Shown: positions 9,956 through 14,327 of the stretch, in pieces | How positions within the stretch are numbered: the stretch's first letter is position 1 | Layout: each line of letters opens with the position of its first letter | Assembly (NCBI RefSeq): GCF_000427445.1 | Contig: NZ_KE386496.1 | Span: 620,001 to 684,000 of the forward strand | Source of the DNA: Methylocapsa acidiphila B2 | Lineage (GTDB): Bacteria; Pseudomonadota; Alphaproteobacteria; Rhizobiales; Beijerinckiaceae | DNA length: 64,000 bases | Reading direction: 5' to 3' | Notes under the pieces: generated by a model | Databases searched by the model: none | Told to the model about the DNA's origin: nothing | What the model saw: only the letters and a program-made list of their open reading frames with translations | Made by a program: the position numbers and the translations under genes

Positions 9956-10315
9956 ATGGTGAAGGCAACCACCAAAAAAGCGCCAGCGAAAAAGACCGCT
10001 GTAAAGAAAGCCGTCGTGAAGAAAGCGACAGCGAAGAAGGCGACGGTGAAGAAGGCTGCGGCGCCAAAGGCGGCGGTGAAGAAGGCCGCTGTGAAGAAGA
10101 CCGCCGTAAAGAAGGCGCCGGCGACGAAGGCGGCGGCGAAGAAGACCTCAGCCCCGAAGGCTGCGGTGAAGAAGACCGCAGCTCCGAAGGCTGCAGTGAA
10201 AAAGACAGCGGTCAAAAAGGCGACGGTGAAGAAGGCCAGCGTCAAGAAGGTCGTGCGGAAGGGGGCGCCCCGCAAGCCGAAGGCCGCTCCATCTGCGCCT
10301 CCGGAGACTGTTTGA
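9956..10315 (+). CDS. Histone H1-like Lys/Ala-rich DNA-binding protein
   Basis: A 119-aa low-complexity basic protein made almost entirely of KKAAVKK/KKTAVKK/APKAAVKK units from residue 5 to about 105, ending in KGAPRKPKAAPSAPP. This composition resembles the C-terminal domain of eukaryotic histone H1 and bacterial H1-like proteins (Hc1, AlgP, BpH1), which bind DNA non-specifically and influence nucleoid compaction. There is no globular domain. GGGAG precedes the ATG. The role is inferred from composition only; RNA binding is an alternative. The DNA repeats themselves make this stretch prone to in-frame expansion and contraction. Confidence 0.8.
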   Translation: MVKATTKKAPAKKTAVKKAVVKKATAKKATVKKAAAPKAAVKKAAVKKTAVKKAPATKAAAKKTSAPKAAVKKTAAPKAAVKKTAVKKATVKKASVKKVVRKGAPRKPKAAPSAPPETV

Positions 10316-11105: not shown

Positions 11106-11882
11106 TTAGCTCGCCAACCGAAGGAAGACGCCGATAAAATTGTTCAGCGCATGCAAGGCGATCGGCGCTTTGACGCTGCCGGTCAGTTCGCGAAGTGCGC
11201 CGAGCCCGAGGCCGATGGGAAAGATCGCCAGCGCGTAAATATGCGTGTCCTCATGGTGGAGCCCGGCGAAGATCGCCGAGGTCGTGAGCAGGGTCGCAAT
11301 GAAGCCGAACCTCCGGCGGAGGTCGGTAAAAATCCAGCCGCGAAAGACGAGTTCCTCGACGATTGGCGCGAAGCCCACGGCGAGAAAGGCGACGAGCACA
11401 GTCACCGCCGCGCTGCCTTCCGGGATCGCCGACCTGCCGCGCGCCTCGGGCGCGAAATAGGCGATCGCCAAATCCGCGGCGCCACTATAGGCCAGGGTCG
11501 CGCCGACGAGCAGCCAAAAGGCGCGCCGACGCAGCCAGCCGATCCAGGGCCGCCAGGCGATGAGATCGCGCCACGCGCCGCCGCCGCGAAGACGGGCGAC
11601 GATCCAGACAGCAAGTCCGATGGCGAGATAAATCAAGCAGGCGGCGACAAGGCGGAAAATAACCGAATCGCCGGCTTCGCCCCCGTTGAGGGCCGTTCGG
11701 AACCTCTCGGCCAGGGGGCGGGCCGCGCTCCAATGCTCGAGAAAGGCGCTGGCGACGCTGATGAGCACGGTCGCCAGCAGAAGCAGCAATGCCGAGGTCC
11801 CAAGGATGACAAGGAGCCCGAGACAAAGCTCATAAAGCGCATAAACTCTTGATTTAACGTAATTATATGTGGATTCACCCAA
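11106..11882 (-). CDS. CPBP family intramembrane glutamic endopeptidase
   Basis: Multi-pass membrane protein, 258 aa, of the CPBP (CAAX protease/bacteriocin-processing, ABI) family. The three family motifs are present: EELVFRGW (EExxxR, about residues 176-183), FAGLHHEDTH, and HALNNFIGV near the C-terminus. Seven or so hydrophobic segments are visible. In bacteria such proteins are membrane proteases whose targets are mostly unknown. It is transcribed away from ssrA; its start lies in an AT-rich patch that probably holds its promoter. Confidence 0.87.
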   Translation of the reverse strand: MGESTYNYVKSRVYALYELCLGLLVILGTSALLLLLATVLISVASAFLEHWSAARPLAERFRTALNGGEAGDSVIFRLVAACLIYLAIGLAVWIVARLRGGGAWRDLIAWRPWIGWLRRRAFWLLVGATLAYSGAADLAIAYFAPEARGRSAIPEGSAAVTVLVAFLAVGFAPIVEELVFRGWIFTDLRRRFGFIATLLTTSAIFAGLHHEDTHIYALAIFPIGLGLGALRELTGSVKAPIALHALNNFIGVFLRLAS

Positions 11883-11922
11883 ATCCGCACCCGCTTATGT
11901 TCGGGCTCCGCGCCATTCGCCT

Positions 11923-11950
11923 TTGTAAAAATGCCCGCAATGCTTATATT
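11923..11950 (+). promoter_or_regulatory. Candidate sigma-70 promoter of ssrA
   Basis: TTGTAA (11923-11928) and TATATT (11945-11950) are separated by 16 nt, which predicts a transcript start near 11957, just before the acceptor half of the tmRNA gene. Confidence 0.5.
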
Positions 11951-11956
11951 CGATCC

Positions 11957-12280
11957 GCCGCCTCGGCGGCTACGGCGATAAACGGCGTCGAAATAAGCTC
12001 TTCGGACCCGGGGGCGGTACCCGGCGCCTCCACCAAAGCCCGTCTCGCGAGAGGCGGGTTTCGGCGGGGGCGAAATAGGTTCGACGGGGAGTGTAAAGGA
12101 TGATCTTTCGCTCGGCATGGTTCCGCCGTCATCGGGCCGAACTTTATAGTTGCCAACGACAACTATGCTCCGGTGGCCGTTGCTGCGTAATGCGGCAATA
12201 GTACCGAAATTAAAGTCCTTAGGGGTAGCACTCTAAGGCGGGGCTCGGAGGCGCCTGGCAACAGAAGCCTCCACTTTTAA
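11957..12280 (+). ncRNA. ssrA: Permuted two-piece tmRNA
   Basis: tmRNA rescues stalled ribosomes and tags the nascent chain for proteolysis. The gene is circularly permuted, as in alphaproteobacteria: the acceptor half ends GGCGCCTCCACCA (CCA end at 12035), a spacer of about 30 nt follows, and the coding half starts GGGGGCGAAATAGG at 12066. The two ends form a 7-bp acceptor stem with a G-U at the third pair, the alanine identity signal. A T-arm CCGGG/CCCGG with a 7-nt loop precedes it. The tag frame, 12152-12190, is ANDNYAPVAVAA followed by TAA, starting on a GCC resume codon. The 3' end is a GGAGGC/GCCTCC hairpin followed by ACTTTTAA. The outer 5' and 3' limits are approximate. Confidence 0.96.
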
Positions 12281-12338
12281 TTTCGTCCTGGAGCTTTCCC
12301 AGGTCTCCGCCGAAAAACCTCTGCTTGGGCTGAATTGA

Positions 12339-12923
12339 ATGGCGACCGATCTGATCCGCTATGACCTCCTGGTTCAGGACGCATTGCGCGGCGTGGTGAA
12401 ACGGGTCTTGTCGGACCTCGCTCGGGATGGACTCGTCGGCGATCATCATTTCTACATCACTTTTCGAACCCACGCGCGCGGCGTGCGGCTTTCGGCGCGG
12501 ATGCGAGAGCGCTATCCGGACCAGATGACGATCATTCTCCAGCACCAGTTCTGGGATCTGAGCGTCAACGATCACGCGTTTGAGGTCGGTTTGTCGTTCA
12601 AGAACGTGCCGGAAATGTTGCTCATTCCCTTTGACGCCATCACCCGTTTTTCGGACCCTTCCGTCCCCTTCGACATGGATTTCGAGCCGGAAGACGACGA
12701 GGGCGAGGCTGGGGCCAATGACGCCGGCCTGGCCGGCGACCAAATGTCCTCGCCGGCCTCTCTCGCAGCCGCGCCCCTCGGGCCGAGAGCGCTCGAAAGC
12801 GAAAATGCCGCCGGGCCTCTCGACTCGGCGATTGAGCCAAAGGTTGCGGCGGATGAGGCGGCAGCCTCGCGCGACGATGCGGCCAAGGTCGTTTCGATCG
12901 ACGCTTTTCGCAAAAAGACCTGA
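12339..12923 (+). CDS. sspB: SspB-type ClpXP adaptor (stringent starvation protein B family)
   Basis: Alphaproteobacterial SspB, 194 aa. SspB binds the ssrA tag and tethers tagged proteins to ClpXP for degradation. The substrate-binding beta domain spans about residues 1-110 (LIRYDLLVQDALRGVVKRVL, HHFYITFRT, QFWDLSVNDHAFEVGLSFKNVPEMLLIPFDAI). A long acidic, Ala/Pro-rich linker (110-180) ends in the short ClpX-docking-like peptide AKVVSIDAFRKK. It lies about 60 bp downstream of ssrA on the same strand, next to the RNA that encodes its ligand. The ribosome site is weak. It is followed by DUF4169 with a stop/start overlap. Confidence 0.9.
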   Translation: MATDLIRYDLLVQDALRGVVKRVLSDLARDGLVGDHHFYITFRTHARGVRLSARMRERYPDQMTIILQHQFWDLSVNDHAFEVGLSFKNVPEMLLIPFDAITRFSDPSVPFDMDFEPEDDEGEAGANDAGLAGDQMSSPASLAAAPLGPRALESENAAGPLDSAIEPKVAADEAAASRDDAAKVVSIDAFRKKT

Positions 12924-13141
12924 TGGGTGAGATCGTCAATTTGCGCCGGGTCCGCAAGACCAAGGCGCGCGCGGCCGAGGCAGCCGACGCTGCGGCCAAT
13001 CGGGTGAAATTCGGCCAAAGCCGCGCCGAGCGCGCCGGCGTTGAGGCGCAGCTCGCCGCCGATGCGCGTCGTCTCGATGCGCATAGACGCGAGTCGCTCA
13101 AGTCCCCCGAGGCTCCGTTCTTCGGCGATGATGGAGCCTGA
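12923..13141 (+). CDS. DUF4169 family protein
   Basis: A 72-aa basic helical protein beginning MGEIVNLRRVRKTKARAAEAADAAANR, the characteristic opening of the DUF4169 family, a small alphaproteobacterial family of unknown function that commonly lies beside an RHH protein gene. Its ATG overlaps the sspB stop (TGATG), and its end overlaps the next start, so the three genes are translationally coupled. No catalytic motif is visible; nucleic-acid binding is conceivable from the charge pattern but not shown. Confidence 0.8.
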   Translation: MGEIVNLRRVRKTKARAAEAADAAANRVKFGQSRAERAGVEAQLAADARRLDAHRRESLKSPEAPFFGDDGA

Positions 13142-13373
13142 TCCGCCGCCCGCGGCGTCGAGCGCGATCGTCAAACATTCGCTCGCCATAGCTGGCCATC
13201 GCACCAGCATCTCGCTCGAATATGCGTTTTGGGACGGGCTCAAGACGATCGCTGTCGAGCGCGGCCTTTCCTTGGCGAGCCTCGTCGCAGCGATCGACGC
13301 CGAGCGCGGCGCGGCCAATCTCTCCTCGGCGATTCGGGTCTTCGTCCTGAACTGGGCGCGCTCGCGAAAATGA
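13131..13373 (+). CDS. Ribbon-helix-helix domain protein
   Basis: An 80-aa protein whose core, HSLAIAGHRTSISLEYAFWDGLKTIAVERGLSLASLVAAID, fits the RHH_4 ribbon-helix-helix family: a beta strand, then two helices. RHH proteins are dimeric DNA-binding regulators, although the targets of this family are unknown. Two adjacent ATGs (13128 and 13131) overlap the end of the DUF4169 gene; the second is used. It ends only 6 bp from the convergent aldo/keto reductase gene. It is third in the sspB transcript. Confidence 0.82.
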   Translation: MEPDPPPAASSAIVKHSLAIAGHRTSISLEYAFWDGLKTIAVERGLSLASLVAAIDAERGAANLSSAIRVFVLNWARSRK

Positions 13374-13379
13374 CCGCCG

Positions 13380-14327
13380 TTACGCGCTGACCTTGTTCAG
13401 CCGATCGAGCGCCGCCGCATCGAGTCTGATCTCCGTCGCCCCCGCGATCTCGTTGAATTGCGCGAGGTTCGTCGCGCTGACAATGGGCGCCGTGACGCCG
13501 GGCTGCGCGATAAGCCAGGCGAGCGCGATTTGTGTGGGCGTCGCCTGATGGCGGGCCGCGACTGAATCGAGGGCCGCGAGAATGTCGAAGCCGCGCGGAT
13601 CGAGATAATGCGCGACGGTCTTGCCGCGCGCCTTTCCCTCGAGGTCTTTCATGTCGCGATATTTCCCTGTGAGGAAGCCCGCGGCCAAGGCGTAATAGGG
13701 AATGACGCCGATTCCCTCGGAGATGCAGAGCCTTTGCAGTCCGCCTTCGAATAGCGCGCGATTGGCGAGATTATAATGCGGCTGCAGGCACGCGTAGCGC
13801 GGATAGCCTTTGGCTTTGCTCACGGCCAAGGCGTCTGCGAGCCGTGACTCGACATAGTTCGAGGCGCCGATGGCGCGGACCTTCCCCGCCTGAACGAGGC
13901 TCGCGAAGGCTTCGAGCGTTTCCTCGAGCGGCGTCCAGACATCGTCGACATGAGCTTGGTAGAGGTCGATACGGTCGGTCCTGAGCCGGCGCAGCGAGGC
14001 CTCGGCGGATTGAATGATATGGCTTTTCGACAGGCCCTTGCCGGCTGATCTCATATCCATGCCGACCTTAGTCGCGACGAGGATCTTGTCGCGGTCGCCG
14101 CCGCGCTGGAGCCACTTGCCAATGATCGCTTCGGATTCGCCGCCCTGATGGCCATCGACCCAGATCGAATAGACGTCGGCTGTGTCGATCAGATTGAGGC
14201 CCCGATCGACGAAAGCGTCAATGATCGAAAACGAGGTCGCCTCGTCCGCCGTCCAACCGAAGACATTCCCGCCCAAGGCGAGCGGGGCGACGCTAAGGCC
14301 AGAGTCGCCGAGTTTTCGCTTCTCCAT
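13380..14327 (-). CDS. Aldo/keto reductase
   Basis: NAD(P)H-dependent aldo/keto reductase, 315 aa, a TIM-barrel enzyme reducing aldehydes or ketones, in the cytosol. The catalytic tetrad is visible: Asp and Tyr in NLIDTADVYSIW, Lys in ILVATKVGMD, and His in DLYQAHVDD. The cofactor region near the C-terminus (AQPGVTAPIVSATNLAQF) is typical. Two in-frame ATGs (14336 and 14327) lie after AAGGAG; the second has the better spacing of about 10 nt. The substrate is unknown. It is convergent with the RHH gene. Confidence 0.9.
   Translation of the reverse strand: MEKRKLGDSGLSVAPLALGGNVFGWTADEATSFSIIDAFVDRGLNLIDTADVYSIWVDGHQGGESEAIIGKWLQRGGDRDKILVATKVGMDMRSAGKGLSKSHIIQSAEASLRRLRTDRIDLYQAHVDDVWTPLEETLEAFASLVQAGKVRAIGASNYVESRLADALAVSKAKGYPRYACLQPHYNLANRALFEGGLQRLCISEGIGVIPYYALAAGFLTGKYRDMKDLEGKARGKTVAHYLDPRGFDILAALDSVAARHQATPTQIALAWLIAQPGVTAPIVSATNLAQFNEIAGATEIRLDAAALDRLNKVSA

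Follow-up and report, generated by a model that had tools for sequence, protein, structure and literature searches.

The permuted tmRNA gene and sspB lie side by side in Methylocapsa acidiphila B2 and in most related genomes checked, probably as one transcription unit

SspB is the adaptor that carries ssrA-tagged proteins to the protease ClpXP; its conserved C-terminal tail is, we assume, the part that binds ClpX. In Escherichia coli the tmRNA gene, ssrA, presumably lies beside smpB, and sspB presumably follows sspA. The locus of Methylocapsa acidiphila B2 described here resembles the E. coli smpB-ssrA pair in that a tmRNA gene adjoins a gene of its own pathway, but the partner differs, being the ribosome-rescue cofactor SmpB in E. 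coli and the protease adaptor SspB here. In Caulobacter crescentus, we take the adaptor to be the product of CC2102, and the proteins of the solved structures 2qas and 2qaz to come from this species; their homology to the M. acidiphila SspB spans residues 3-122. Two papers list CC2102 as an alphaproteobacterial signature protein (PMC1182365, PMC2241609), and a review cites Lessner 2007 for the adaptor in alphaproteobacteria (PMC3985003).

The tmRNA of S. meliloti is reported to consist of pieces of 82 and 214 nucleotides, two stable RNAs that arise by cleavage of an unstable precursor (PMC2873474); a figure legend in a 2007 paper gives the coding piece as 204 nucleotides (PMC2245857). This last paper also describes a sigma70 promoter before the S. 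meliloti ssrA (tTTtct-n17-TATATg), predicts a V-shaped terminator at the 3' stem-loops of the tmRNA, states the link between ssrA and smpB, and places smpB 1.1 Mb from the tmRNA gene in the alphaproteobacterial case. Both genes flanking the tmRNA gene are said there to be conserved in alphaproteobacteria, their functional association being called uncertain, so that the synteny is already partly in print (PMC2245857). The gene downstream of the S. meliloti ssrA, on the same strand, is SMc01450 (PMC2573895). The M. acidiphila locus is like that of S. meliloti in having a two-piece tmRNA, a sigma70-like promoter, a same-strand gene downstream and an opposite-strand gene upstream. It is unlike it in that SMc01450 is not named as SspB in the available text of these sources; its position suggests that it may well be SspB. 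Passages of PMC5422525, PMC8119881 and PMC11915505 make no mention of the gene order. A full-text literature search, in the passages it returned, found no paper that names SspB as the neighbour of tmRNA, although an earlier mention is possible.

The window, that is, the whole stretch of 64,000 nucleotides that was analysed, contains the following features around the pair:

11106 to 11882, minus strand: gene for a CAAX-type membrane protease (PF02517, 69.6 bits), the divergent upstream neighbour, outside the proposed unit
11921 to 11950, plus strand: putative ssrA promoter, CTTT (11921-11924) and TATATT (11945-11950), from the promoter scan and the order-wide comparison
11943 to 12281, plus strand: ssrA, a circularly permuted two-piece tmRNA gene (ARAGORN; Rfam RF01849, RF04321)
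11954 to 12035, plus strand: acceptor (tRNA-like) piece, CCA-terminated, from the sequence; the 5' end is approximate and the size set by analogy with the 82-nucleotide S. meliloti piece
12066 to 12281, plus strand: coding (mRNA-like) piece, from the sequence and the ARAGORN tag position; the 3' end is approximate
12247 to 12283, plus strand: terminal hairpin GGAGGC/GCCTCC and U-rich tract, from sequence and fold; a weak terminator-like or cleavage site
12282 to 12338, plus strand: gap of 57 nucleotides between ssrA and sspB, in which the scans found no sigma70-like and no terminator-like site
12339 to 12923, plus strand: sspB, encoding an alphaproteobacterial SspB of 194 residues (PF04386; 2nys, 2qas, 2qaz)
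12923 to 13141, plus strand: DUF4169 gene (PF13770, 66.0 bits), whose start overlaps the sspB stop (TGATG)
13131 to 13373, plus strand: ribbon-helix-helix (RHH) gene (PF13467, 88.4 bits), overlapping the end of the DUF4169 gene

The original prediction of a permuted two-piece ssrA with the tag ANDNYAPVAVAA holds, since ARAGORN and two Rfam families agree on it. The Rfam alpha_tmRNA model RF01849 matches 11918-12275 with 300.9 bits (gathering cut-off 50), RF04321 matches with 152.2 bits (gathering cut-off 47), and ARAGORN reads the tag, whose codons and stop occupy 12152-12190. This is the only RF01849 match in the whole 4.10 Mb genome. The CCA of the acceptor piece stands at 12033-12035, before the coding piece, and the 5' GGGGGCG of the coding piece pairs with the 3' strand of the acceptor piece. 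By covariance model, order of the CCA and tag frame, the gene is thus identified as that of a permuted two-piece alphaproteobacterial tmRNA. Positions 1-36 of RF01849, which correspond approximately to 11918-11953 of the window, have a consensus (CUU ... UAUAUU) that resembles the ssrA promoter; the 5' end of the model therefore probably precedes the transcription start.

The open reading frame at 12339-12923 is assigned to SspB by its domain and by its similarity to solved proteins. PF04386 matches with 152.6 bits against a cut-off of 27, and three structures entitled 'SspB Protein' are similar to the product (2nys, 5.6e-43; 2qas, 8.5e-32; 2qaz, 4.1e-31), while none of the NCBIfam models matched. 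The protein ends in VVSIDAFRKKT, a C-terminal tail similar to the VVSLDAFRKK of 2nys, though the similarity there is not significant alone (i-Evalue 88); a tail fitting a pattern of our own choosing was found in 79 of 118 survey loci. Placed by the earlier reading within about 60 bp 3' of ssrA on the same strand, sspB does begin 57 nucleotides after it, measured from the ARAGORN end to the ATG, both genes lying on the plus strand. ssrA heads a run of four same-strand genes, followed by sspB, the DUF4169 gene and the RHH gene. Farther upstream, at 9956-10315 on the plus strand, a 119-residue open reading frame with AVKKA/KK repeats looks by eye like a histone H1-type DNA-binding protein.

A comparison of gene order across the order had been proposed from the start, and it shows the arrangement in most genomes. 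Among 150 genomes of the window's order, 149 have a tmRNA, 149 an SspB and 148 both; sspB lies less than 500 bp downstream of ssrA, on the same strand, in 124 of these 148, the two are within 5 kb in 136, and on one contig in 139. A class-wide draw of 153 genomes gave a tmRNA match in 147 (145 above the cut-off; the two below it come from genomes without an SspB match), SspB in 143 and both in 140, with 96 of the 140 adjacent by the same measure, 112 within 5 kb and 121 on one contig. Among 117 genomes taken one per family, 76 have the pair less than 500 bp apart and 15 do not; the genes fall on separate contigs in 16, and one match is missing in 10. One tmRNA and one SspB match were kept per genome, leaving out the second matches of five genomes; at least two others also carry a second match, and two genomes are common to the order and class surveys. 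Outside Alphaproteobacteria, a phylum draw of 120 genomes included 78 in which a tmRNA of standard form and an SspB match both occur, the latter below the Pfam cut-off in four. Adjacency was seen in none of the 78: in the 16 with both genes on a single contig the smallest distance is 165 kb, and in 62 they are on different contigs, so that adjacency there is not fully excluded.

The arrangement recurs among the closest SspB relatives. Of the best 80 of 413 in titled records, 77 have a tmRNA before sspB, 71 of them whole, upstream and on the same strand, and six cut by a contig end; in the remaining three (L160, L166, L186) no tmRNA lies within 2.5 kb of upstream DNA. These best 80 are led by Beijerinckiaceae (Methylocapsa, Methylocella), include many metagenome-assembled genomes, and reach Bradyrhizobium, Afipia, Ancylobacter, Kaistia and Rhodoblastus. 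The pairing of ssrA and sspB is, on this comparative evidence, old in Alphaproteobacteria and kept in most of the related genomes checked. That it is a chance rearrangement peculiar to this strain, as the original prediction allowed, is ruled out by the two surveys; no point was found in favour of this explanation, and we give it a vanishingly small probability.

The distance between the genes is often very short. For the 71 relatives with a whole tmRNA, the gap was measured between the ARAGORN end and the first base of the SspB match. Its median is 55 nucleotides and its minimum 13; it is below 60 nucleotides in 39 and only 13-20 nucleotides in 17, all of which have an ATG start. In a few of the other relatives (e.g. 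L201) the SspB match begins past the first residue, which makes their gaps look slightly longer than they are. Of the 109 gaps under 500 nucleotides in the genome survey, 27 are under 60, and the shortest are 35 nucleotides in the order and 22 in the class, counted from the Rfam end to start codons chosen by script. The two genes show three of the features expected of an ncRNA-mRNA operon: same strand, short gap and conservation over lineages. Where the gap is 13-20 nucleotides, it is too short to hold a promoter and a start point, and the sspB RNA must therefore begin inside or before ssrA. This bears on the main rival explanation, rather unlikely though it has to be taken seriously, in which the two genes are separate units. 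The hairpin and U-rich tract would stop nearly all transcription from ssrA, sspB would have its own weak promoter, sited either in the gap or within the coding piece of ssrA, and the adjacency would persist simply because it was never broken, or through its regional position. The 17 tightest gaps exclude a promoter between the genes, so that these species would need one inside ssrA.

A scan for sigma70-like sites in 11850-13400 returned one only, TTGTAA-16-TATATT at 11923-11950, before ssrA; position 11923, at which the region first noted begins, is the first base of its -35 hexamer. For comparison across species, 120 of the 246 loci with the pair within 5 kb were fetched, a non-random set taken from the top of each list (80 loci of the order, 40 of the class); counts that depend on the sspB stop omit two of them. 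The promoter form conserved before ssrA is mostly CTTT-N18-CYTATATT. A TATA box stands at the expected position in 79 of the 80 loci from the order and 32 of the 40 from the class; in the 79, CTTT is matched at four of four positions in 58 and at three of four in 19. CTTT lies 24 nucleotides ahead of TATA in 58 of 77 order loci and 22 of 29 class loci.

No conserved promoter for sspB was found in the gap, whether by pattern, by a matrix trained on the ssrA sites or by a generic sigma70 rule, gaps of at least 500 nucleotides being left out of all promoter counts. With the matrix, the best score in the window's gap is -2.8, equalled by 9 of 20 shuffles, against 23.1 for the ssrA promoter. The median best gap score over 74 order loci is -1.0 against 22.9 at the ssrA site, and the 10th percentile of ssrA-site scores is reached by none of 74 gaps in the order and 4 of 35 in the class. 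Trained on these very ssrA sites, the matrix shows only that such sites are absent from the gap, and for the ssrA site itself the comparison is circular. The pattern TTGnnn/TAnnn occurs in the gap of 15 of 74 order loci, against 12.5 in shuffles, and of 4 of 35 class loci, against 2.1. The generic rule, applied to the last 120 nucleotides of the tmRNA plus the gap, gave a site in 6 of 74 loci of the order and 1 of 35 of the class, close to the 3.6 and 1.8 expected from shuffles; in 70 nucleotides at the ssrA start it gave one in only 27 of 74 and 7 of 35, and so misses many such sites. In favour of separate units, the matrix scores show a mild excess: in 15 of the 74 gaps from the order and 5 of the 35 from the class, at most one of the gap's own 20 shuffles scores as high, and a few species (L077, L084, L070, L023) may, on this evidence, have an sspB promoter of their own. 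The species being related, shuffle counts and p-values are rough throughout.

At the 3' end of the tmRNA, the hairpin at 12247-12272, followed by ACTTTTAATTT, is recovered in the fold of 12235-12345, although the fold of this 111-nucleotide stretch, taken whole, is no better than that of shuffled sequences (z 0.16). A terminator scan of 11850-13400, limited to loops of 3-8, reported nothing between ssrA and sspB, its sole terminator-like site being within the RHH gene; with this limit the tmRNA's own hairpin would go unreported. Across species, T makes up 45% of the 12 nucleotides from the end of the Rfam match in 80 order loci; in the remainder of the gap its share is 22% (75 of these loci), and the class set gives 38% and 21%. 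If the U-rich tract were tuned for read-through, it should be weaker where sspB follows closely; this idea has no support, the tract holding 4.65 T of 10 in 106 adjacent loci and 4.30 in 20 where sspB is far (p=0.62, gaps of 300-799 nucleotides left out). The tract being no poorer in T beside an adjacent sspB, the 3' signal is a property of the tmRNA alone. A terminator-like end that is kept even where sspB is far off, together with the terminator predicted for S. meliloti in PMC2245857, speaks for separate units, and the hairpin and U-rich tract may end nearly all transcripts, which counts against a single one. A coding piece of the S. meliloti size, 214 nucleotides, would end here near 12279, just past the hairpin (204 nucleotides would end within it), and this fits a 3' end formed by termination or by cleavage at the U-rich tract.

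The genes around the pair are less conserved than the pair itself; as the loci were picked for holding the pair, this comparison says only that, given the pair, its neighbours change. A divergent thymidylate synthase gene precedes ssrA in 47 of 118 loci (thyA in 31, thyX in 16, never both). On the other side, fumC lies downstream of sspB in 36 of 117 loci, at most about 1.5 kb from the SspB domain; one member each of the thyA and thyX groups, and the fumC query, were identified by Pfam. thyA and thyX represent two unrelated thymidylate synthase families occupying the same position before ssrA. A fixed operon with the DUF4169 and RHH genes was rejected as a candidate, since within the roughly 1.5 kb covered downstream of the SspB domain they occur in only 19 and 23 of 78 order loci and in 0 and 3 of 39 class loci. 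The upstream CAAX protease gene is a local neighbour, found in the roughly 700 bp covered upstream in 1 of 118 survey loci, the window's own, and recurring in 11 of the best 80 of 413 close relatives. This wider neighbourhood, and tags that vary among lineages, agree with an explanation in which co-inheritance or function keeps the pair together, whatever its transcription, either because tag and tag reader coevolve or as part of a conserved thyA/thyX-ssrA-sspB-fumC neighbourhood. It leaves the frequency of very short gaps unexplained, and we consider it improbable. Nor would plain inertia, on which separate units would lean, predict that both flanks are conserved less well than the pair.

Separate units are favoured by some exceptions, in which sspB is kept without ssrA close before it (G106, G183, G273, G159). 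In loci with longer gaps, various long open reading frames intervene, on the opposite strand in five genomes. These inserts, and sspB without ssrA in front, indicate that co-transcription is not essential. In G106, which belongs to the window's own family, a CAAX protease gene and a thyA-like open reading frame precede sspB, and ssrA is absent there; the sole RF01849 match of this genome is a divergent permuted tmRNA 105 kb from sspB (114.6 bits). Its tag region reads ANDNVVMDARLAA by eye, and ARAGORN did not find it. Second divergent permuted tmRNA genes also occur in G100 and G229, beside a normal-scoring ssrA in the same genome, with tags ANDNRNPAEAMPLAA and ANDNSPVAMAA; the G229 copy adjoins three tRNA genes. 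RF00023 gave nothing above its cut-off in six genomes (G106, G100, G229, G273, G159, G094), and a phage search gave one match, in an unannotated record. Contigs end inside the tmRNA gene in six of the 80 titled loci and also in three survey genomes; perhaps repeated partial tmRNA copies, or structure, stop the assembly at these points.

Weighing these points, we think it moderately probable that ssrA and sspB form one transcription unit, old in Alphaproteobacteria, in which a partial stop or cleavage at the 3' hairpin leaves read-through to supply sspB. Transcription would begin immediately ahead of the acceptor piece, at the conserved promoter, and cleavage of the precursor would release the two pieces of the tmRNA, acceptor and coding. 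Some transcripts would end or be cut at the hairpin and U-rich tract, and the remainder would run on to give the mRNA of sspB and, in M. acidiphila, of the DUF4169 and RHH genes that overlap behind it. The output of the tag and that of its adaptor would then both follow one promoter, sspB remaining far below tmRNA through partial termination. The permuted gene would ease such an arrangement, since the CCA end that bears the amino acid is internal, and for the same reason the sequence after the coding piece would not affect charging. Co-transcription from the ssrA promoter, with a partial stop or cut at the tmRNA 3' end, would account for four observations: the gaps are short, both genes share a strand, a second conserved promoter is missing, and the pair has persisted. 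The analysis itself shows which genes these are, their order and conservation, the very short gaps and the failure to find a conserved promoter between them; co-transcription, partial termination and dosage coupling are what we infer. The coupling by read-through that had been proposed at the outset has partial, indirect support: gaps down to 13 nucleotides, a conserved promoter before ssrA and none found in the gap argue for it, while the weaker U-rich tract that it predicted failed to appear.

A broader proposal can be put forward, with less confidence than the single unit itself and only tentatively. Most Alphaproteobacteria would make the adaptor only from transcripts that escape termination at the tmRNA precursor or are cut from it, and one promoter would set the capacity for both tagging and disposal, which the permuted gene would permit and which would have persisted from early in the history of the class. 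SspB and tmRNA have so far been studied as separate parts of one quality-control path. Their class-wide linkage, which in many species leaves no room for a promoter between them, offers a testable rule by which the supply of the tag would be matched to that of its carrier, and mutants in the promoter or the 3' end of an alphaproteobacterial ssrA may also alter SspB.
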